Positions 26,801 to 36,528 of a stretch of 64,000 nucleotides of DNA are shown piece after piece (the first letter of the stretch is position 1; each line of letters opens with the position of its first letter). The DNA is from Arthrobacter sp. zg-Y820. Its GTDB lineage: Bacteria; Actinomycetota; Actinomycetes; Actinomycetales; Micrococcaceae. Under the pieces are notes generated by a model. The model did no database searches. It saw only the letters and a list, made by a program, of their open reading frames with translations, and was not told the DNA's origin. The stretch spans positions 2,790,001-2,854,000 of the forward strand of contig NZ_CP126247.1 in NCBI RefSeq assembly GCF_030142155.1. The letters are read 5' to 3'. The position numbers and the translations under genes are program-made.

Positions 26801-27282
26801 CCGTACCGCTCCACAATCTGGGTGGAAGTGGCGTCCACGGTTACAGGGGCGAAATCCGTTCCGGAGAACCCGGACCCCAGCGGCAGCGGCACATCGAAAC
26901 GCACCAGGACAGTCACGGTCGAGCCGGGCGCCAGGCACTCAGCGGAACAGGCAATATCCAGCAGCAGACCCGCCGGTTCGAATCCGAAATCGGTGAACGC
27001 CAGTTCGGCGGCCATCGTGGCCTGCTGCTCGCCGATGAACGGGTCTCCGGAAGCGACGTACACCTTCGCCGCCGATTCCGCGGCGCCGGTTGCGGCGAAG
27101 GCGGCACCCTGCACCTGGCCGGCCGTAACAATGAGGTAGATAACCGGCACGAGCAGCACCAGTCCGAGGAAGATGAACTCCACCAGTGCGCTGCCGTTCT
27201 CGGCATCGCCGGTTTTCAGTGCCGCTGTTCCGGCGGCCGGGTCAGTCGCCGGCACCGGCCGTGTCATAGCCCCAGACTCCAT
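26797..27282 (-). CDS. TadE family pseudopilin
   Basis: 161 residues. The start at 27282 is decided by a perfect GGAGGTGA (27296-27289 on the - strand) six bases upstream, although this makes it overlap the previous gene by 41 bases; an ATG at 27267 is the alternative. The N-terminal GDAENGSALVEFIFLGLVLLVPVIYLIV segment has the TadE prepilin layout, with the Glu in ALVEF following the processing boundary. The C-terminal domain contains two Cys (IACSAEC) that may form a disulfide. Part of the tad operon. Confidence 0.85.
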   Translation of the reverse strand: MESGAMTRPVPATDPAAGTAALKTGDAENGSALVEFIFLGLVLLVPVIYLIVTAGQVQGAAFAATGAAESAAKVYVASGDPFIGEQQATMAAELAFTDFGFEPAGLLLDIACSAECLAPGSTVTVLVRFDVPLPLGSGFSGTDFAPVTVDATSTQIVERYG

Positions 27283-27700
27283 GTCCGGTCACCTCCAATC
27301 CCCCGCTGGGCCCCAGGAACCCCACCACCGGCAAGGGTGCCCGGACCGTGACCTGCAGCATTCGCACTCCGCCGTGAGTGGTTTCGGAAAAGCTGACGTC
27401 CTCCGCCAGCGAGTCATTGAGCGCAAGGCGGATCAAGTCAGCTGTGCGGTCTGCGCCGTCGGCCGGGGTCCGGTCCGCCAGGGTGCCGTAGCGTGCGCCC
27501 GACGCGGCTGCATCGATCAGGGTGTTCCGGACATGCAGCACCAGCGCCAGCTGGATGATCGACATGAACAGCAGCGTCAGCAGCGCCCCGACCATGACAA
27601 AGTCCACCACCGCAGACCCGCTTTCGCGGCCGGTGGCGCCGGTGTGCCCGGCCCGGCCTGAACCGACCGGACCAGAACCGGTCTGGCCTGAACCGGTCAG
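27242..27700 (-). CDS. TadE family pseudopilin with non-standard start
   Basis: About 152 residues. The TadE core is clear: GRESGSAVVDFVMVGALLTLLFMSIIQLALVLHVRNTLIDAAASGARYGTLADR (read in parts). Between the flp-like stop and the hydrophobic segment there is no in-frame ATG, GTG or TTG. The nearest option is CTG at 27700, which overlaps the stop of the preceding gene as CTGA; the next is an ATG at 27811 well inside that gene. The interval encodes a repetitive Gly/Thr/Ser tail (TGSGQTGSGPVGSG). I give the CTG start with low certainty; the frame itself is not in doubt. Confidence 0.7.
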   Translation of the reverse strand: MTGSGQTGSGPVGSGRAGHTGATGRESGSAVVDFVMVGALLTLLFMSIIQLALVLHVRNTLIDAAASGARYGTLADRTPADGADRTADLIRLALNDSLAEDVSFSETTHGGVRMLQVTVRAPLPVVGFLGPSGGLEVTGHGVWGYDTAGAGD

Positions 27701-27712
27701 GGGCCGTTGACC
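27648..27712. repeat. Degenerate CTGAACCG repeat at the start of the TadE gene
   Basis: On the + strand the words CTGAACCG, CAGAACCG and CTGAACCG recur at 15-17-base spacing, mixed with CCGGTC words. It corresponds to the Gly/Thr/Ser-rich N-terminal tail and to the area where a start codon is missing. Confidence 0.5.
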
Positions 27713-27921
27713 TTGCTCATCGCGGACTCGAACATGGTCCTCAGCGAGGTTTCCGCCAAGACCATGATGACCGCGACCAGCGTCGCCGACATGAGCGTGA
27801 TCATCACCCATCCCGGTACGTCGCCGCGCTCGCGGTCCCCGCCTGTCACGGTTTGGGACAAGCGGACGATCAGCGCGGTGCCGAGCAGAAGCAGGATGCG
27901 GCGTGGGTTGATGGTGCGCAT
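27697..27921 (-). CDS. Flp-like small pilin (Rv3656c-type)
   Basis: 74 residues. AAGGA lies seven bases before the ATG. A basic N-terminus is followed by RERGDVPGWVMITLMSATLVAVIMVL (read in parts): a pilin-like hydrophobic helix after a short charged leader, as in Flp/DUF4244 proteins of actinobacterial tad loci. It lacks the classical G-x4-EY Flp processing motif. It probably supplies the major subunit of the pilus or secretion filament. It follows tadC by 25 bp. Confidence 0.78.
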   Translation of the reverse strand: MRTINPRRILLLLGTALIVRLSQTVTGGDRERGDVPGWVMITLMSATLVAVIMVLAETSLRTMFESAMSKVNGP

Positions 27922-27946
27922 GGGAAGTTCCTTTCATTGGAGGGGC

Positions 27947-28888
27947 CTAGAGTCCGATTCCCAGCAGGGATATGCCGGGAAAGATCGAGAAAAGCACAGT
28001 CAGGGGAAGCACGCCGAAAACCAGTGGAACCATCATGGCGATCTCCTTCTTGCCGGCGCTTTCCATCAGTTCGCGCTTGGCCAGGTCCCGGACGTCCTGG
28101 GACTGTGCACGCATGACATCGGCCAAGGGAGTGCCGCGCTCGATTGCGACGGTCAGTCCGTCGACAAACCTGGACAGCGGCGCCAGCCGGACCCGGTCGG
28201 AGAAGTGCTGCAACGCACTGGAAAGGGGCACTCCGGAGCGGGTTTCCGCGAGGATCCGTGCAAACTCGCCGGCGAGTTCACCGTGGGCCGTCCGGGCGAT
28301 CCGTTCCAGGGCGCCGTTGGCGCTTTCCCCGGCTCCGACCGCGAGCGCCATCATTTCCGCGAGGCTTGGGAATTCGGCAAGCATGCGGGTTTCGCGGTTC
28401 TTGATTTGTGCGCTCAGCCGGTAGTCCCTCAGGGTGAAGCCCAGGACCGCACCCAGAATGGTGCCTGCTATGACGCCGGGAACGCCGGCCTTGTCCGCGC
28501 TGGCCATCCACACCGTGATCGTGCCGCCGGCAAGAAAACCGCCTCCGGTCCAGAGCACCTGTTCCGCCCGAAAATCCAGGACGCTCGTGTTCCGTCCGGC
28601 GCGTTCCAACCGGCGTTCCAAGTCACGCGTCACCGGATTTATCCGGTTCAGCCGGCGGACCGCCAGGTGCAGGGCCGGCCGCAGGATCCGTTCCAAGGGG
28701 CCGAACGGGGTGAGGTCGCCTGCCGGTGCAGCCAGCAGGCGCGATCCGTGTCCTCCGGTTCGCAGCTGCGGCCCGATGCGTTCGCTGAAGGTGACCGGTC
28801 GCAGTGGAGGCAGCCGGAGAGCCGCGAACCAGAGCGATGAGCCCAGGGCAACACCGAAGAAAACGGCCAGGAACCAGGGGCCGCTCAT
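27947..28888 (-). CDS. tadC: Tad secretion platform protein TadC
   Basis: Type II secretion F-domain membrane protein, 313 residues, one of two platform subunits for Tad/Flp pilus assembly. The T2SSF pattern is present: EFPSLAEMMALAVGAGESANGALERIA (in parts), PLSSALQHFSDRV, LSRFVDGLTVAIERGTPLADVMRAQ and the MMVPLVFGVLPLTVLF helix. The start overlaps tadB by four bases. Residues 238-262 are the parent of the C-terminal part of the chimeric fragment at 33567-33995. Confidence 0.93.
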   Translation of the reverse strand: MSGPWFLAVFFGVALGSSLWFAALRLPPLRPVTFSERIGPQLRTGGHGSRLLAAPAGDLTPFGPLERILRPALHLAVRRLNRINPVTRDLERRLERAGRNTSVLDFRAEQVLWTGGGFLAGGTITVWMASADKAGVPGVIAGTILGAVLGFTLRDYRLSAQIKNRETRMLAEFPSLAEMMALAVGAGESANGALERIARTAHGELAGEFARILAETRSGVPLSSALQHFSDRVRLAPLSRFVDGLTVAIERGTPLADVMRAQSQDVRDLAKRELMESAGKKEIAMMVPLVFGVLPLTVLFSIFPGISLLGIGL

Positions 28889-29739
28889 CGGAGGACCCGC
28901 TCTTCCTCAGGCAGGGCACCGATTCCCAGCATCAGCCGGTAACAAACCACCGAAATCACGATGCCGGCAACCAGCACCGTCGCCCCGGCCGCTGAGTTGT
29001 AGGCCACGATGGCTTCCGGCCGGGAGGCGAGGAGCATCAGGACGATCCAGGGGGCGGCGACGGCCAGGCGCGCGGCATTGACAGTCCACGACTGGCGGGC
29101 CAGCAGTTCGCTGCGGGTCCTGGCATTGTCCCGCAGGAATTCGTTGAGGGTCCCCAGCAGCCGGCCCAGATCCGATCCGCCGACCTCGCGGGTCAGGCGC
29201 AGCGCTTCCACGATGCGGTCAGCGACGGGATCCGCGAGATTGGCTTTCAACCGCGACAGGGAATGGTCGAACTGTCCGCCGGACCGGTAATCCGCAGCAA
29301 ATTCCCGGAACGGCTGCCGCAGTTCTTCGGGTCCGTTCTCGCCCAGCTGGATCAGGGCTTCGGGCAGGGACAGCCCCGCCCGGATCGCCGAACGCAGGTG
29401 GTCGACGGCATCCGGCCAGAGCTCGGCCCGGGAGGTCCGCTGCTTCCGGGCCTGCCAGCGGACCAGAAACAGCGGCACGCCGGCTCCGAACAGCCCAAAG
29501 CAGGCGGCCACCGGCACAGCCCCGGTACCAGCCAGGACCAGCAGCGCCACGAGAAGTCCCGCGGCGATGCTGGCGGCGACCACGGCGCGCGGCGTCACCC
29601 GCTGGATTCCGGCCTGCATCAGTTCGTCTTCCAGCCGGCTGGTGCGCGGCTTGCGGGCAGCCGCCGGCGGAACCGCCCAGCAGGCCCGCCAGATCAGGAA
29701 CAGACCCAGCCCCAGCAGCAGCCCGACGGCCGCGCTCAC
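28885..29739 (-). CDS. tadB: Tad secretion platform protein TadB
   Basis: T2SSF-domain membrane protein, 284 residues. Two N-terminal helices, cytoplasmic domain with LWPDAVDHLRSAIRAGLSLPEALIQLGENGP (in parts), REVGGSDLGRLLGTLNEFLRD, and two C-terminal helices. GTG start overlaps the tadA stop (GTGA). It works with TadC and TadA. Confidence 0.93.
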   Translation of the reverse strand: MSAAVGLLLGLGLFLIWRACWAVPPAAARKPRTSRLEDELMQAGIQRVTPRAVVAASIAAGLLVALLVLAGTGAVPVAACFGLFGAGVPLFLVRWQARKQRTSRAELWPDAVDHLRSAIRAGLSLPEALIQLGENGPEELRQPFREFAADYRSGGQFDHSLSRLKANLADPVADRIVEALRLTREVGGSDLGRLLGTLNEFLRDNARTRSELLARQSWTVNAARLAVAAPWIVLMLLASRPEAIVAYNSAAGATVLVAGIVISVVCYRLMLGIGALPEEERVLR

Positions 29740-30962
29740 GGCTGCACCTCAAGGAGCTCCGCTACGTTGAACCCGGCGCGGGCAAACTTTTCGGGTGCCG
29801 GCATTGACGCAGCGGTGACCTCGAGCCGCCCGTCGGTGCGCTGGAAGATGGAGGAGGTTTCAATGATGCCGTTTTCGACCCGGCTGCCCAGTGCCAGGAT
29901 CTCCATCACCTGCCGTTTTCCGGCGGCGTTCCGGGCGCAGTGGACCACCAAGTCGATGCAGGAGGCCACGGTGGGAACCACGAAGGCGCTGGAGATGTTC
30001 TCGCCGGCCAGCAGTGGAAGAGTGCAGATTTTCGTGACTGCATCATGGGCGCTGTTGGCGTGCACGCTGCACATCCCCGGCAGGCCCGAGTTCAGCGCAA
30101 TCAGCATGTCCAGGCTCTCCGCCTCCCGGACCTCCCCCACGATCAGCCGGTCCGGGCGCATGCGGAGGGCTTCCTTAACCAGTCTCCGCAGCGGAATCTC
30201 CCCCATTCCTTCCAGGTTCGACTGCCGGCACTGCAGTCCCACCACGTCACGCAGCGGCAGCTGCAGCTCGAAGATCTCCTCGACTGTGACGACCCGCTCC
30301 CGCGGCCCGATCGAAGCACCCAGGCAGTTCAGCATGGTGGTCTTCCCGGCCTGAGTGGCTCCGGAGACAAGGACGTTAAGGCCGCTGGAGACGGCGGCAC
30401 CCAGGAATCTGGCCGCCTGCGGGGTCAGCGTGCCAAGTTCGACCAGGTGCTCCAGCCGGCTGGCCCGGGCAATGAACTTGCGGATGTTCACCGCCCAGTG
30501 GCGCCGGGTAATGTCAGGAATCACCACGTGCAGGCGGGAACCGTCCGGCAGCGACGCGTCCACGAACGGCGAGGAAAGATCCAGCCGGCGGCCCGAGCTT
30601 TTCAGCATCCGCTCCACCAGGTCCCGTATCTGGTCTGCGGAGAGAACCAGGGAGGTTAGCTCCGACCGTCCGTCGCGGGCGGCATAAATTTCGGTGGGTG
30701 AATTGATCCAGACTTCTTCCACGGTGGGATCGTCCAGCAGCGGCTGCAGGGCTCCGAACCCGGCGACGGCGTCGAACACGCGCCGGCGGGCCTGCTCCAG
30801 GATGCCGAGGGGCGGCAGCGAACCAAGGAGGGAACGCTCGTCGTAATCGGTCACCGCGTCTTCAACCAGGCGACGGACTTCCGCGAGCTGGCTCGCAGGG
30901 TCCAGACCGCGGACGCGGATCAGTTCCCGTACCTCGTCCTCCACTATCGCAACCGCATCCAC
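29736..30962 (-). CDS. tadA: Tad secretion ATPase TadA/CpaF
   Basis: Hexameric ATPase that powers Tad pilus assembly. 408 residues from GTG at 30962 with GGGGGA six bases upstream. N-terminal domain (1-160) includes DPTVEEVWINSPTEIYAARDG and SPFVDASLPDGSRL; Walker A GATQAGKTT at 201-209, Asp-box Glu in VVTVEEIFEL, Walker B RLIVGEVR (272-279) and the His-box CSVHANSAHDA. The Walker A lacks the second Gly-Ser usual in KTE-type (TQAGKTT), which is normal for this subfamily. First gene of the operon tadA-tadB-tadC-flp-tadE-tadE-tadE/G. Its N-terminal 96 codons are duplicated at 33707-33995. Confidence 0.95.
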   Translation of the reverse strand: MDAVAIVEDEVRELIRVRGLDPASQLAEVRRLVEDAVTDYDERSLLGSLPPLGILEQARRRVFDAVAGFGALQPLLDDPTVEEVWINSPTEIYAARDGRSELTSLVLSADQIRDLVERMLKSSGRRLDLSSPFVDASLPDGSRLHVVIPDITRRHWAVNIRKFIARASRLEHLVELGTLTPQAARFLGAAVSSGLNVLVSGATQAGKTTMLNCLGASIGPRERVVTVEEIFELQLPLRDVVGLQCRQSNLEGMGEIPLRRLVKEALRMRPDRLIVGEVREAESLDMLIALNSGLPGMCSVHANSAHDAVTKICTLPLLAGENISSAFVVPTVASCIDLVVHCARNAAGKRQVMEILALGSRVENGIIETSSIFQRTDGRLEVTAASMPAPEKFARAGFNVAELLEVQP

Positions 30963-31103
30963 CGCTGTCCCCCGGACTTAGCACGGCAGGGACCTGTGGA
31001 TCATCCGCGCCGTAAGACTGGCGTGGCCTGTTTGCGGCCACGGCGGTCAGCCTAGGAGTGCGGGCGGGCTTTTGCGAGGGTAGCCCCGGATGTGTGGATA
31101 AAC

Positions 31104-31119
31104 CGGGTAGCCGTACCCG
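31104..31119. promoter_or_regulatory. Interrupted palindrome CGGGTA-N4-TACCCG (copy 1)
   Basis: Six-base arms separated by GCCG, in the 175-bp spacer between the tadA start and the carboxypeptidase stop. The same arms with a different four-base centre (AGAG) are kept at the matching place of the degenerate second spacer (34133-34148), while most bases around have changed. It could be an operator, or a weak terminator for the carboxypeptidase gene. Confidence 0.45.
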
Positions 31120-31137
31120 CCTTGCGCACAGCCGGAC

Positions 31138-32106
31138 TCAGTAGTTCTCCGCTGCCGGCAGGCCCAAGTACTCCTCGAGGGTGGCTGTGGCGTGGCGGTG
31201 CATGCTCTGCGCCACGTCCGCCCCGACAAAACGCAGGTGCCAGGGCTCGTACGCGTACCCCGTCGTAGCCGATGCGTCGGCCGGATAGCGGACGATAAAG
31301 CCAAAGCGGTGGGCGTTTTCCGCTGCCCAGGCTCCCGCTGCCGTCTCCTCAAAGCAGGCTTGCAGCGAGCAGGTGCCGTCGGGAGCCGCAATATCCACCG
31401 CGAGTCCGGTCTGGTGCTCGCTGTGGCCGGGGCGGGCAGAGATCGTGTCAGCCGTCTCCCGGCCATACTGTGCCACGTAGCTGTTGTACAGGCCGGCCTG
31501 CTGCTCGTAGGACCGGTAGCCGCTGACGATGCTCATGGCGACGCCGTCAGCTGCCGCTCCGTCCTTGAGCTTCCCGAAAGCGGAGGCGGCCTCACTGCGC
31601 AGCGGGTGTCCGTCCACGTCAACCAGGTTTTCGGGCACATGGGTGGCCGGGTTCAGGGGCCGTTGCTTGTTAACGACGACGGCGGTGTCCGTTGCATCGT
31701 CAATGGCGCGGTCGACCACGAGCGCACCCCGACGTGCAGTGGAGATCGTGCCCCGCTCGAAGTGCTGCGTGCAGCTTCCCTCCAGGCAAACCTGGGCGTC
31801 GACCGGATAACCGAGGGTGCCTGATTCGGAGCCCTCGGCAGCCCACGCTGAATGGATGGCCCCGCGAACCGGGTAGGTACCGGTGTTCGGCGACCAGATC
31901 GTGGCGCCGTAGTAATGGTTACGGACGCATCCGCCGTCGCGCAAGCCGCAGCTTGCCTCACGGGAGGGCAGCGCCAGGGGAACGGCCGCATCCTTCGGCG
32001 CCGGGGACACTGTGTCCAGGCGCGACGGTTCGGCCGCGCCAAGGACCGCCAGGAGCGCCGCGGCAGCGAGCAGGACCGGAACGGGCTTGCAGTAGCGCCG
32101 ATTCAT
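31138..32106 (-). CDS. M15 D-alanyl-D-alanine carboxypeptidase with LGFP repeat (VanY-like)
   Basis: Exported cell-wall enzyme, 322 residues from the ATG at 32106 (AGGAG four bases upstream); an ATG 11 codons earlier has no ribosome-binding site. Signal peptide to about residue 25, then a Cys-containing spacer, one LGFP repeat (YPVRGAIHSAWAAEGSESGTLGYPV, in parts) that may bind the wall, and the M15 domain with SGYRSYEQQAGLY, the zinc-binding SEHQTGLAVD and EPWHLRFV. A C-terminal insertion with two Cys (TCSLQACFE) may form a disulfide. It trims peptidoglycan stem peptides. TAAACT about 45 bases upstream is a possible -10. Confidence 0.9.
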   Translation of the reverse strand: MNRRYCKPVPVLLAAAALLAVLGAAEPSRLDTVSPAPKDAAVPLALPSREASCGLRDGGCVRNHYYGATIWSPNTGTYPVRGAIHSAWAAEGSESGTLGYPVDAQVCLEGSCTQHFERGTISTARRGALVVDRAIDDATDTAVVVNKQRPLNPATHVPENLVDVDGHPLRSEAASAFGKLKDGAAADGVAMSIVSGYRSYEQQAGLYNSYVAQYGRETADTISARPGHSEHQTGLAVDIAAPDGTCSLQACFEETAAGAWAAENAHRFGFIVRYPADASATTGYAYEPWHLRFVGADVAQSMHRHATATLEEYLGLPAAENY

Positions 32107-32323
32107 GGGTCTCCTGGTTTTCGCTTGCGATTCGTACATGGCCTGGTTGGCAGTTTACGCGGTTCGCATCCCGCCCATTGTGCCTGATACGGGAAACCGC
32201 ATCGGCCGCACCGCATTCAGCTTGCGGATCCGAACAGCCCAGGCCAAGATCCGTGGGCACCGGCCGTACACCTGGCCCAACATTTGGGACCACTCGATCC
32301 GCGAACACCGCGCGTGCCGCGGC

Positions 32324-33535
32324 CTAGGGCCGGTTGGACGAATCCCTCTTCAGCAGCGTAAACAGACCTATTACAACGAATATTCCGCCTAGGATAAACA
32401 GTGCCATCGAGCCTACCGCCAGCCCGGTTGCCGCGATCCCGGCAACAAGACCGGCCGCCACATTTACTCCCAGCATCGCCTCACCCTCCGCTTTGTATTG
32501 CGCGGCCCACAAGTCGCGCTCTTTGTGGGTGATCTTTTTACGGAGTATTTCCATCCAGGACGCGAGAATCCATCCGCCACGTACGCAAGCCAAGATCTCC
32601 TTGGGGACTATAGTCACGGCGATAAGGATGTCCCACTTGTCCTTGAACGGAACGCGAAGGGCAATCTTGAAGTTAATGGCTATGAATAAGAGGGGCACGA
32701 GCAGTCCCCACCAAATTATTGTCAAGGCGTCCAGGTATAGTGCCAGGGAAACTACCATCACCCAGAGCGCCCGTATTACAGGTCCGGCCAGATTGAGCAT
32801 CTGGCTAACCCAATCCCTGATGGTCAGATGGTTGACCCCGAAGCGAAGCAGATCCTGCAGGGTACCCGCCTGCCACTTCATACGCTGCCCCCACAGGGAC
32901 TTCAGGTTCTTCATCCCGTCGGTATATGCCCTGACGGTGGTGGATACATAGGTCTTGTATCCCGCTTCCCGAAGGCGGTAGGTCAGCTCGTAATCCTCCA
33001 CAGCGCTTTCGTACGACCACGGTCCTTCCCGGTCGTCCCTGGCGGCAATCTCCCTCAGTGCCCTACCGGAGAATGCAGACCCGGCGCCCGCCAGGACATT
33101 GGTCCACCCATTATTCAGCCCCTGCTGGATGTTGTAAGCGTATTCCGATTTCTGTAGCCTGCACCAGAAACCGGGCTGCTGTATGGTGAACTTGGAAGTC
33201 GATCCTCCGAAGAGGCGCTTCCATGATTCCTTCTCCCAGTCTTCAATGGCATTGGGGGCAAGCACAGTGTCTGCGTCCATGGACACCACCAGATCAGAGT
33301 CACGGCCATAGAGATTCCACCCCGTATTCATGGCCTCGGACTTGCGGTGTTTTAGGCGGGGCAGGTCCATTACGATTACCGGGTACTTCTTGGCTACCTC
33401 CACCGTTTGGTCAGTACATCCATTGGCGATAATGATGATCTGGTCCGGCAGCCGGGTCTGCGCGAGAAGGGACTCTATGGTTTGCCCTATAGTTTGCTCC
33501 TCGTTATGTGCCGGTACTAGTACTGTGATATCCAT
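32324..33535 (-). CDS. Family 2 glycosyltransferase, membrane-bound, low GC
   Basis: 403 residues from the ATG at 33535; AAGGAGG sits five bases upstream and excludes the longer open frame. The N-terminal GT2 domain has VLVPAHNEEQTIG, VVSMDADTVL (DxD), AVEDYELTYRLREAG and GQRMKWQAG, a variant of the Q-x2-RW motif of processive beta-glycosyltransferases; several membrane helices follow at 270-330 and at the C-terminus (GLVAGIAATGLAVGSMALFILGGIFVVIGLF, in parts). Base composition differs from its neighbours: two 60-base stretches I counted (32641-32700 and 33361-33420) hold 29 and 31 G+C, against 42 of 60 at 31321-31380. It was probably acquired by transfer. Product unknown. Confidence 0.85.
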   Translation of the reverse strand: MDITVLVPAHNEEQTIGQTIESLLAQTRLPDQIIIIANGCTDQTVEVAKKYPVIVMDLPRLKHRKSEAMNTGWNLYGRDSDLVVSMDADTVLAPNAIEDWEKESWKRLFGGSTSKFTIQQPGFWCRLQKSEYAYNIQQGLNNGWTNVLAGAGSAFSGRALREIAARDDREGPWSYESAVEDYELTYRLREAGYKTYVSTTVRAYTDGMKNLKSLWGQRMKWQAGTLQDLLRFGVNHLTIRDWVSQMLNLAGPVIRALWVMVVSLALYLDALTIIWWGLLVPLLFIAINFKIALRVPFKDKWDILIAVTIVPKEILACVRGGWILASWMEILRKKITHKERDLWAAQYKAEGEAMLGVNVAAGLVAGIAATGLAVGSMALFILGGIFVVIGLFTLLKRDSSNRP

Positions 33536-33566
33536 TCCCTCCTCCTTCCCGTGCCGGGTGCCGGAA

Positions 33567-33995
33567 TCATCGCTGCGCCCGCGTGACATCGGCCAGCGGT
33601 GCACCCCGTCCAATGGCGGCTGCCCGCCCGTCAAGAAACCGGGACAGGAAACTTGCGGTCTGGGGGGTCAGGAGGCCCAGCTCCACCAGGTGCTCCAGAC
33701 GGCTGGCCCTTGCCGCATAGATCTCCGTCGGTGAGTTGATCCAGTTTTCCTCCACAGCGGGGGCGTCCAGCAGGGGCTGCAGGGAGCCGAACCCGGCTGC
33801 GGCGGCGTATGCCCGCCACGGTGCGTGCTCCATCGCTCCAAGGGGAGGAAGCTGCCCGAGGAGGGAGCGCTCGTCGTAATCCGTGACCGTGTCCTCGGCC
33901 AGGCGCCGCGCTTCGGCGATTTGGCTGGCCGGATCCAGTCCGCGCACGCGGATCAGCTCCCGAACCTTGTCCTCGGCAATTCCCACTGCATCCAT
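33567..33995 (-). pseudogene. In-frame chimera of tadA and tadC fragments (tad operon remnant)
   Basis: 142 codons, open throughout. Residues 1-96 match TadA 1-96 (DERSLLG, LQPLLD, NWINSPTEIYAAR), residues 97-117 match TadA 167-187 (ASRLEHLVELG-LTPQ), and residues 117-142 match TadC 238-262 (RF-DG---AI-RG-PLADV-RAQ). So internal tadA, all of tadB and most of tadC are gone. The first joint lies at a shared Ala-Arg codon pair. It lacks Walker A and B, so it cannot be an ATPase. It begins with ATG where tadA has GTG. Its 3' end runs to just before the glycosyltransferase start. Confidence 0.85.
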
Positions 33996-34215
33996 TCGCT
34001 GACCTCCGGTAGGCTCCGGAAGGGTCGGCGGCTTCGTCCCTCCCGCGACGGTGGTGCAGCCGGTTATGGGCTGCGGCATCAGGTTATGGGCGCGGGAGAG
34101 CTTTGGCGAGCGTAGTGCAACGCGCGAAAAACCGGGTAAGAGTACCCGTACCTGTGTCAGGTAGGCGGAGATCAGTAATCCGCAGCCGGGGTTTCGGCCT
34201 GCAGGCCTATGCCAC
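33996..34215 (-). pseudogene. Degenerate copy of the tadA-carboxypeptidase spacer and carboxypeptidase C-terminus
   Basis: The 176-bp spacer upstream of the chimera aligns in length and in its last 80 bases with the 175-bp spacer upstream of tadA (AACCGGGTA, GTACCCG, final TCA stop). It is followed by a TGA at 34174-34172 and a C-terminal remnant reading GLQAETPAADY against GLPAAENY in the intact M15 enzyme. Beyond about 34215 the similarity is lost. No other gene is visible here. Confidence 0.75.
34133..34148. promoter_or_regulatory. Interrupted palindrome CGGGTA-N4-TACCCG (copy 2)
   Basis: Same arms as at 31104-31119, with AGAG in the centre, located at the equivalent distance from the remnant stop codon. 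Its survival in an otherwise eroded spacer hints at function or at recent duplication. Confidence 0.45.
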
Positions 34216-34236
34216 AGCCATTACCTGTGCCGGGCT

Positions 34237-34391
34237 TCAATCCTCGTACTCGTTGCTCCGGGCGCGCTGGAGACAATGGGCAACCTCGCCAACGCTGGAC
34301 CGGGTTGAGATGCGGCAGGCACCGCAGGGGTGGGCCACCTCAATCCGTGTGCGGATCCAGGGCGCAACGCGGAATGGTGCCCGTTCCGGAA
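34237..34391 (-). pseudogene. Possible C-terminal gene fragment
   Basis: About 50 codons ending in TGA at 34239-34237, reading FRVAPWIRTRIEVAHP, CGACRISTRSS and VGEVAHCLQRARSNEYED. Third codon positions are mostly G or C, as in real genes here. It runs into the acyltransferase gene on the left side of its frame, with no start of its own. I do not recognise it. It could be the tail of a gene cut by the same rearrangement, or chance. Confidence 0.3.
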
Positions 34392-35507
34392 TTATGCCGG
34401 CACGGGAAGCGGCCTTGGAGAACTCCGCCTCCGGCCTTTCAGCCGCATGGCCGGAGCCTCGACACAAATGTAGCTGGCCAGCGCCAGCGGCAAAATGCCG
34501 GCGAATGCCAGGAGGAGGCAGGCGGGCAGCGAGAGCGCCGGCAGCCAGACTTCCAGAAGGTTCTGCACCGGAACCCCGTAAATGTAGACACCGTAGGACA
34601 GATCCTGCTTTGCGCCGATCTTCCGCAAAGGGAGCACCGCCCCCACCACGAAGACAACCAAAGCAAACGGCAGCGGAGCCAGGACAGCAGCGGTTCCGGT
34701 CAGTATCGATGCGAGGAGCAGGGCAAGGGACACTGCCAGCGCCGGAACGACCGTTATTCGCTTCGCATTCAGATAAAGAAGTGCTCCACCCGTAAACGCT
34801 GCGATAAGAGGCGGTGCCATGGTGAGTTCGCTGGGCGGTACCAGACCGGCATGGGCAGCCAGGGATGCGCCGGTGGCAGCCAGGAACACCGCCGCCGTGA
34901 GGACGTTGCGGCGGGCCCGAGTCGCGGCGATGCCGACAATCCCTATTCCGAGATAGCAGCAGCCCTCCCAAAACAGGCTCCACAGGGCTCCGTTCCAGAT
35001 TTCACCCTCAGCCAGTGTGGACCCGATGCCCGCCTGCGAAATGAACGGAGGATAAAGAAGGAAATTCCGGAGGATATAGGTCAGGGCTTCCGCGGGGACA
35101 AAGGACCCCGCGGACCCGAGAGCAACTGACAACGGTGCAAAAACAAATGCCACCATAATCAGGGCGACCAGGAAACCCGGAAAGATTCGCAGGAAACGGG
35201 CCCGGAAAAACCGGGATGCCGGTTGACCGTTGAACCTGCTCCGGGTAATCAAGTAGCCCGAGATTCCGAAGAACCCGAGAACCGACCACGCGCCAAGCGT
35301 CCGTCCGCCCAGGGAGGGTTCATCACCGTGCCCGCCGATTACCCATGAGTGGGACACCACTACCAGGCACGCCAGTATTAGGCGGATGGCATTGAGGGAA
35401 TTGTTTTTGGGATCGAACAGTTCCCCCAGCGTCATTCGTAATGGCGAGCGGCTGGGCAGCAGAGGTGGCGCAGATAGGGACATGGACCGATCTTTCGAGT
35501 TATCCAT
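34392..35507 (-). CDS. Acyltransferase family 3 membrane protein
   Basis: 371 residues from the ATG at 35507; ATG at 35483 is also possible and neither has a good ribosome-binding site. The family features are ILACLVVVSHSWVIGG (catalytic His in the first helix), GISGYLITRSRF and RFFRARFLRIFPG, followed by about ten hydrophobic segments. The LWSLFWEGCCYLGIG helix corresponds to the WSL-x-E motif. It would transfer acetyl or another acyl group to a surface glycan, fitting its place at the left edge of the polysaccharide region. It lies downstream of rmlA behind a terminator. Confidence 0.85.
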   Translation of the reverse strand: MDNSKDRSMSLSAPPLLPSRSPLRMTLGELFDPKNNSLNAIRLILACLVVVSHSWVIGGHGDEPSLGGRTLGAWSVLGFFGISGYLITRSRFNGQPASRFFRARFLRIFPGFLVALIMVAFVFAPLSVALGSAGSFVPAEALTYILRNFLLYPPFISQAGIGSTLAEGEIWNGALWSLFWEGCCYLGIGIVGIAATRARRNVLTAAVFLAATGASLAAHAGLVPPSELTMAPPLIAAFTGGALLYLNAKRITVVPALAVSLALLLASILTGTAAVLAPLPFALVVFVVGAVLPLRKIGAKQDLSYGVYIYGVPVQNLLEVWLPALSLPACLLLAFAGILPLALASYICVEAPAMRLKGRRRSSPRPLPVPA

Positions 35508-35584
35508 CGGGATTGGGAGCCGGCCGAGTAATTTCACGACACGGCTACTCGTGAGCGACCACAAGACTACTTGCATTTCTTTCC

Positions 35585-35619
35585 AAAAGTGGCCGGCCGG
35601 AAACCCGGCCGGCCACTTT
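35585..35619 (-). terminator. Terminator after rmlA
   Basis: A 15-bp perfect stem (35586-35600 with 35605-35619) and loop AAAC on the + strand; on the - strand it is followed by TTTT. It is 43 bases after the rmlA stop. Confidence 0.88.
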
Positions 35620-35661
35620 ATAATCACCGCATTTCCCGCTCCTGCGGCAACGCGGGCACTG

Positions 35662-36528
35662 CTATTTCTGCGCGAGGAGCTCCATGAGGTACTGGCCGTA
35701 CCCGCTTTTGACCAACGGCTCGGCCAAACGGCGCAGTTCGTCGTCGTTGATGTTGCCCAGTCGCCACGAGATTTCCTCGGGGCAGCCGATGGACAGGCCC
35801 TGCCGCTTCTGGACGGTGCGGATGAATTCCGAGGCCTCGTTCAGGGAGTCGAAGGTTCCGGTGTCCAACCATGCCGTGCCGCGCGGAAGGATCTCCACCT
35901 GGAGCTTTCCCTTCTCCAAGTAGATGCGGTTCACATCGGTGATCTCCAGCTCGCCCCGCGGGGAGGGCTTCAGGTCGCGGGCAATTTCGATGACGTCGTT
36001 GTCATAGAAGTAGAGTCCCGGCACCGCATAGTGGCTCTTGGGCTTGGACGGCTTCTCCTCCAGGGAGATGGCACGGCCTTCGCCATCGAACTCGACGACG
36101 CCGTAGGCGGTGGGGTCCGCCACCCAGTACCCGAACACCGCTCCGCCGTCGATGTTGGCGAAGCGCCGAAGCTGCGTCCCCATTCCGGCACCGTAGAAAA
36201 TGTTGTCGCCCAGGACCAGGGCAACGGGTCCGGTGCCAATGTGCTCAGCGCCGAGGACGAACGCCTGCGCCAAACCGTCGGGAGAGGGCTGCTGCTTGTA
36301 GGTGATGCTGACGCCGAAGCGGCTTCCATCCCCCAGCAGGCGCTGGAACTGATCCGCGTCATGGGGTGTGGTGATGATCAGGATGTCCTTGATCCCGGCG
36401 AGGATCAGGGTCGACAGCGGATAGTAGATCATTGGCTTGTCATAGACCGGCACCAGCTGTTTGCTGACGCCAAGGGTGATGGGGTGCAGCCGTGAACCGG
36501 TACCGCCGGCCAGTATTATTCCTCGCAT
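35662..36528 (-). CDS. rmlA: Glucose-1-phosphate thymidylyltransferase
   Basis: First enzyme of dTDP-L-rhamnose synthesis, making dTDP-glucose. 289 residues from the ATG at 36528, where the protein begins [18 protein letters not shown] as in characterised RmlA; GAGG is three bases upstream. Other family segments are [21 protein letters not shown] (in parts), [29 protein letters not shown] (in parts) and [10 protein letters not shown]. It is divergent from rmlB, which shares the short 56-bp promoter region. Confidence 0.97.

Follow-up and report, generated by a model that had tools for sequence, protein, structure and literature searches.

We find that an open frame of 142 codons in the genome of Arthrobacter sp. 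zg-Y820 is the remnant of a second tad pilus operon, standing ahead of a gene for a GT2 glycosyltransferase that we call GT2a. The frame lies in a stretch of 64,000 nucleotides (contig NZ_CP126247.1, positions 2,790,001 to 2,854,000; hereafter the window) that also holds an intact, resident tad operon. Our preferred explanation, to which we give a probability of roughly 0.7, is that a second tad operon was acquired and then gutted to its leader and GT2a, the relic being an intermediate of this process. The starting operon would have been of the type still intact in a related genome, G008, with the order dac-tadA-tadB-tadC-flp-tadE-GT2a-tadF-tadG, and would have arrived by horizontal transfer. 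Internal deletions would then have stripped the redundant pilus genes, so that what is left is GT2a, the leader and, between them, 142 codons of tadA/tadC debris. In the present genome (G000) GT2a may be transcribed from the leader, and ribosomes that translate the open relic frame, which stops shortly ahead of the GT2a start, could aid GT2a expression by staying on the message. The footing of this proposal is what can be seen in the sequence, namely the origin of the relic, the order of its pieces, the leader, the loss of constraint on the relic, the constraint on GT2a and the shorter modules of four relatives. The original prediction, made from the letters of the window, had recognized the tad relic and read it mostly rightly; it missed that the relic heads the GT2a gene.

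When the relic region was compared with the whole window by blastn, three collinear blocks on the same strand came up in the genome's own tad operon: the 5' end of tadA with 13 nt upstream of it (76% over 298 nt, E 3e-56), the interior of tadA (82% over 65 nt, E 3e-12) and tadC (72% over 75 nt, E 3e-5). In the codon register, the block ASRLEHLVELG starts at relic codon 97 and corresponds to TadA 167, while TadC LSRF begins at 238 and the match stops at Q262. The second and third blocks overlap by a few bases at their joint, and TadA 97-166 and everything beyond about residue 188 are missing. Against the tad operon of G008 the similarity is 80% over 506 nt, including the leader up to about 34191, and two shorter matches follow (86% over 63 nt, 75% over 75 nt). 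The TGA of the relic comes from a third joint, located behind the tadC piece, and lies 31 nt ahead of the GT2a ATG (33535). The original prediction had overlooked both the leader homology and this third joint. Several operon genes are matched collinearly at the nucleotide level, in the order tadA, tadA, tadC and with the leader attached, which identifies the region as a tad relic. These data bear out the composition that had been proposed for the frame (TadA 1-96, TadA 167-187 and TadC 238-262, in the order and orientation of the intact operon) and its two in-frame joints, the first of them at an Ala-Arg pair. The prediction depended on nucleotide similarity to tadA and tadC, which the three blocks provide, and on the architecture not being widespread; the 142-codon arrangement is absent from the matches in the other 28 genomes of the genus. 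The order, the attached leader and the shorter forms in four relatives likewise uphold the idea of a second tad operon, with the qualification that the relic was not copied from the resident one.

Related genomes hold what look like further stages of the same reduction. A second tadA leader precedes GT2a in all five genomes that carry the gene outside the tad operon, a count of genomes and not of independent events, and these module leaders cluster with the leader of G008 (support 83; supports throughout are those of splits from the final analysis of the tadA, ftsX, leader and GT2a trees), apart from their hosts' own leaders. Ahead of GT2a there remain 142 tadA/tadC codons in the present genome, about 22 tadA codons in G026 and 19 in G027, G009 and G010. 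In G026 the tadA codons are followed by the same third-joint segment as in the present genome (82% over 44 nt); the two agree at 22 of 30 positions, a value equalled by none of 2000 shuffles, the best of which reached 21. In G009, G010 and G027, tadA codons 1-19 are joined through two further codons to the former ATG of GT2a, now ATC, so that one frame of 374 codons runs from the tadA GTG. G026, G027, G009 and G010 group together in the GT2a tree (90) and in the leader tree (82), and the length of the tadA remnant parallels the branching of these four relatives, while the two trees place G000 differently. The module is flanked in G027 and G010 by direct repeats of the tadG 3' region, of 58 and 54 bp when measured against the module-free genomes G028 and G020. 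A related stub without GT2a, made up of a tadA leader and about 17 codons, also occurs in G007 (L153 1150-1410). It precedes the real tadA by about 2.6 kb, and a lysozyme-like frame lies on the opposite strand between the two.

The copied leader contains elements that would act as a promoter, including a -10-like motif and two inverted repeats. Compared with G008, the start site of the relic shows ATG in place of GTG and GGAGGT in place of GGGGGC; these are two changes only, and they would fit continued translation of the relic. Two matches to known RNA elements within 30000-35000 both scored below the gathering threshold, and we do not regard the leader as such an element.

The competing explanation that survives best is plain decay, with relic and leader as inert debris before a GT2a gene that has its own promoter and with no selection on the leader. 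We consider it unlikely, albeit the only rival of real weight. It would account for several observations that count against promoter capture. The leader has diverged at 39 of 151 positions compared with 21 of 78 synonymous ones, and so has not evolved more slowly than neutral sites. It has also lost 10 of 57 columns that are invariant in eight resident leaders; when the same test was run leaving out one leader at a time, seven residents lost 1-4 of 58-61 columns and G008 lost 11 of 68. Leader-wide conservation therefore does not serve as proof of a promoter. GT2a has a strong Shine-Dalgarno sequence of its own, and an own promoter is possible. Two further points weaken our preferred explanation: the GT2a tree groups all five modules without G008 (98), whereas the leader tree pairs the leader of G000 with that of G008 (77), and an internal in-frame GTG at codon 17 of the fused frame in G010 is a possible alternative start. 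On the other hand, it counts against plain decay that a leader copy was kept before GT2a in all five genomes with the gene outside the operon, and that in three of them the ATG of GT2a has been lost and the gene forms one continuous frame with the start of tadA. Gutting of the acquired operon down to leader and GT2a could be part of something larger, for which we would offer slightly less than even odds: a transferable cassette in which selection keeps the tad promoter, the start site and a translated tadA stretch before GT2a, so that this surface enzyme would be expressed along with the pilus (perhaps a competence pilus), and which would have moved between species while shrinking toward a TadA(1-19)-glycosyltransferase fusion.

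The relic frame itself evolves nearly neutrally and has lost constraint at the protein level. We assigned changes to the relic branch with outgroups over the two tadA-derived blocks (251.5 non-synonymous and 99.5 synonymous sites), excluding the tadC-derived block; for the second block five of eight outgroup genomes, those with the motif in a readable frame, were used and three were dropped. The clear changes comprise 22 non-synonymous and 5 synonymous ones and the ambiguous changes 3 and 16, respectively, which yields an omega of 0.47 with the ambiguous changes all included and of 1.74 with all of them left out. For resident tadA against seven clade-mates, dN/dS is 0.02-0.05. Constraint on the relic is thus relaxed, and purifying selection like that on resident tadA is not seen. 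At first and second codon positions, moreover, the relic has changed in 16 of the 167 columns on which eight resident tadA genes all agree. The original prediction had called for such a count and had considered recent decay or selection for a small product; the omega of the relic branch agrees with relaxation and disfavours a selected product. Its remark that two in-frame joints with no stop codon are suggestive is correct as an observation, but the evidence for coding is weak: in simulations 28-62% of sequences were still stop-free at 30-60 substitutions, and two in-frame joints by chance contribute a further factor of 1/9. It is consequently very improbable that the frame encodes a functional small protein derived from TadA, such as a competitor of TadA assembly, despite its being open, its two in-frame joints and a start codon and Shine-Dalgarno sequence improved over those of G008, given its omega, the altered invariant columns, the lack of any Pfam or NCBIfam match (including the T2SSE domain expected of a functional TadA/CpaF secretion ATPase) and of a counterpart in the other 28 genomes of the genus.

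The origin of the relic was addressed with a tree of tadA codons 1-96 from 29 genomes of the genus, the present one included, together with the relic. The relic is sister to the tadA of G008 (95), this pair is joined by G017 (87), and the group holding resident tadA is separated from the rest (95). Branch length is 0.227 for the relic and 0.013 for G008 tadA; dS of the relic is 0.33 to G008 tadA, 0.68 to G017 and 1.16 to resident tadA. Tree position and dS together indicate that the relic derives from a G008-like operon. By ftsX, the present genome groups with G002 and G003 (79), and both relic and GT2a are missing from these nearest genomes. Horizontal acquisition of a second tad operon is therefore the simplest account. 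Tandem duplication of the resident operon followed by deletion could explain the identical gene order and the position of the relic beside the resident operon on the same strand, but is contradicted by both splits of the tadA tree, by the dS values and by the ftsX neighbours, which leaves it scarcely any credence. An assembly artefact is unlikely as the leader-GT2a arrangement recurs in four other assemblies. A plasmid origin was likewise rejected; the plasmid collection gave no match to 33000-34600 of the window, nor to GT2a at E 1e-60. Beyond the relic, at 34392-36528, the acyltransferase gene is 74/73% and rmlA 95% identical to genes of G027 and G028, whereas rmlA of the closer relative G003 reaches only 82% and no acyltransferase was seen in the G003 stretches compared. 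The surface-polysaccharide side of the locus thus looks imported, too.

GT2a passes the Pfam gathering thresholds for PF00535 (72.3 bits versus 23.3) and likewise for PF13641 and PF13632. Unlike the relic, it is under constraint, with an omega of 0.11-0.19 in 14 of 15 pairs; the fifteenth pair, G009/G010, differs at 4 positions. The gene is present in 6 of the 29 genomes with 84-100% identity and always at the tad locus: in the tadE-tadF gap in G008, in the tadG-prfB gap in G009, G010, G026 and G027, and before dac and the resident operon in the present genome. A seventh match, in G006 (33%), is a different gene. Among 395 genomes of the family, 14 outside the genus carry relatives of 52-55%, and no tad gene was found near them, within about 8 kb on each side for 10 and within 1.5 kb for the other 4; the link between tad and GT2a is accordingly seen only in this genus. 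The C-terminal part of about 50 codons (32324-32482, minus strand) matches a separate open reading frame of 49-51 codons after GT2a in G009, G010, G026 and G027, while both are read as a single frame in the present genome. GT2a presumably makes or modifies a surface glycan. Like GT2 polysaccharide synthases of the PgaC/IcaA type, it has a GT2 catalytic domain and, after it, predicted membrane-type sequence. However, the score with PgaC_IcaA, its best NCBIfam model, is 69.2 bits and lies below the curated cut-off (422.3), so that the match does not qualify it as a poly-N-acetylglucosamine synthase. No solved structure matches GT2a outside residues 2-98.

Table 1. Features of the relic, its leader, GT2a and the resident tad operon (window coordinates).
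Feature	Position	Strand	Basis
Leader copy of G008 type	33996-34191	-	80%/506 nt to G008 including tadA 5' end; alignment of 15 leaders; motif scan
End of upstream carboxypeptidase gene (last codons and stop)	~34191	-	Recognisable; gene precedes tadA in G008
Inverted repeat CGGGTA/TACCCG	34133-34148	-	Motif scan
-10-like TAACCT (TANNCT type)	34081-34086	-	Motif scan
Inverted repeat GCAGCC/GGCTGC	34056-34074	-	Motif scan
Shine-Dalgarno GGAGGT	34002-34007	-	Motif scan
Relic frame, 142 codons	33567-33995	-	TadA 1-96, TadA from 167, TadC 238-262
Block A, TadA codons 1-96	33708-33995	-	76% to own tadA, 86% to G008 tadA
Block B, TadA from codon 167, about 22 codons	33642-33707	-	blastn and codon register
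Block C, TadC codons 238-262, then one extra codon	33570-33644	-	72%/75 nt to own tadC, 75% to G008
TGA stop, product of third joint	33567-33569	-	Post-joint segment common to G026
GT2a, GT2 glycosyltransferase, 403 codons, own Shine-Dalgarno	32324-33535	-	Pfam PF00535, PF13641, PF13632
Resident tad operon	27242-30962	-	Pfam T2SSE, T2SSF; used for comparison
tadA, resident	29736-30962	-	Pfam T2SSE at TadA residues 69-349
tadB, resident	28885-29739	-	Member of resident tad operon
tadC, resident	27947-28888	-	Member of resident tad operon
flp-like, resident	27697-27921	-	Name from position, no family match
tadE-like, resident	27242-27664	-	Name from position, no family match

Except where a family match is cited, TadA, TadC, Shine-Dalgarno, -10 and DnaA box are used here as customary names. 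The sequence TTATCCACA, which matches the DnaA-box consensus, occurs a single time in the window (31093-31101, minus strand; 0.09 expected), at a distance of 139 nt ahead of the resident tadA. Of the 29 resident tadA genes, 21 are preceded by exactly this 9-mer, 125-143 nt away, whereas all five leaders of GT2a modules lack it. Insertions into tad operons were seen in G006 (L051), where tadA is interrupted by about 6.6 kb, and in G023 (L039/L151), where it is broken past codon ~167. Matches of tadA, tadB, tadE, prfB and ftsE in G022 (L155) each fall into two frame-shifted pieces, a pattern that points to sequencing errors in the assembly. Contig L094, titled Vibrio cholerae 35D, encodes a TadA resembling those of Arthrobacter (49% to the relic frame), probably owing to contamination of the assembly concerned.

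Operon reduction with promoter capture is a general scheme in which a downstream gene comes to lie near, or in frame with, the leader of the first gene through deletions. The present case differs from it in that several stages can be seen at once among related genomes, one of which has an operon of the presumed starting type. Our literature search retrieved no paper on a comparable case, and none on the combination of tad pilus, Arthrobacter and glycosyltransferase; judged solely from these searches, the leader-GT2a module is not in print. Actinobacterial tad/Flp pilus operons have been described, for example tad-1 and tad-2 of Micrococcus luteus (PMC4322843), and operons of this kind are the source type of the relic pieces and leader. 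Unlike such operons, the relic has been stripped of nearly everything, and in 6 of the 29 Arthrobacter genomes a GT2 gene lies within the tad operon or next to it. A search of passages of PMC4322843 for the term "glycosyl" gave no occurrence, and no glycosyltransferase was named in them.

Overall, operon reduction and the capture of a leader by a cargo gene are visible here at several stages in related genomes. The relic also illustrates that an open frame of 142 codons with in-frame joints in GC-rich DNA may lack any selected protein product. If the leader works, a surface glycosyltransferase would be tied to pilus regulation, and the modules would form a set made by nature in which to test what amount of leader and of translated frame is required by a downstream gene. 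If the Arthrobacter operon serves DNA uptake, the pilus locus itself would be a site of frequent exchange.
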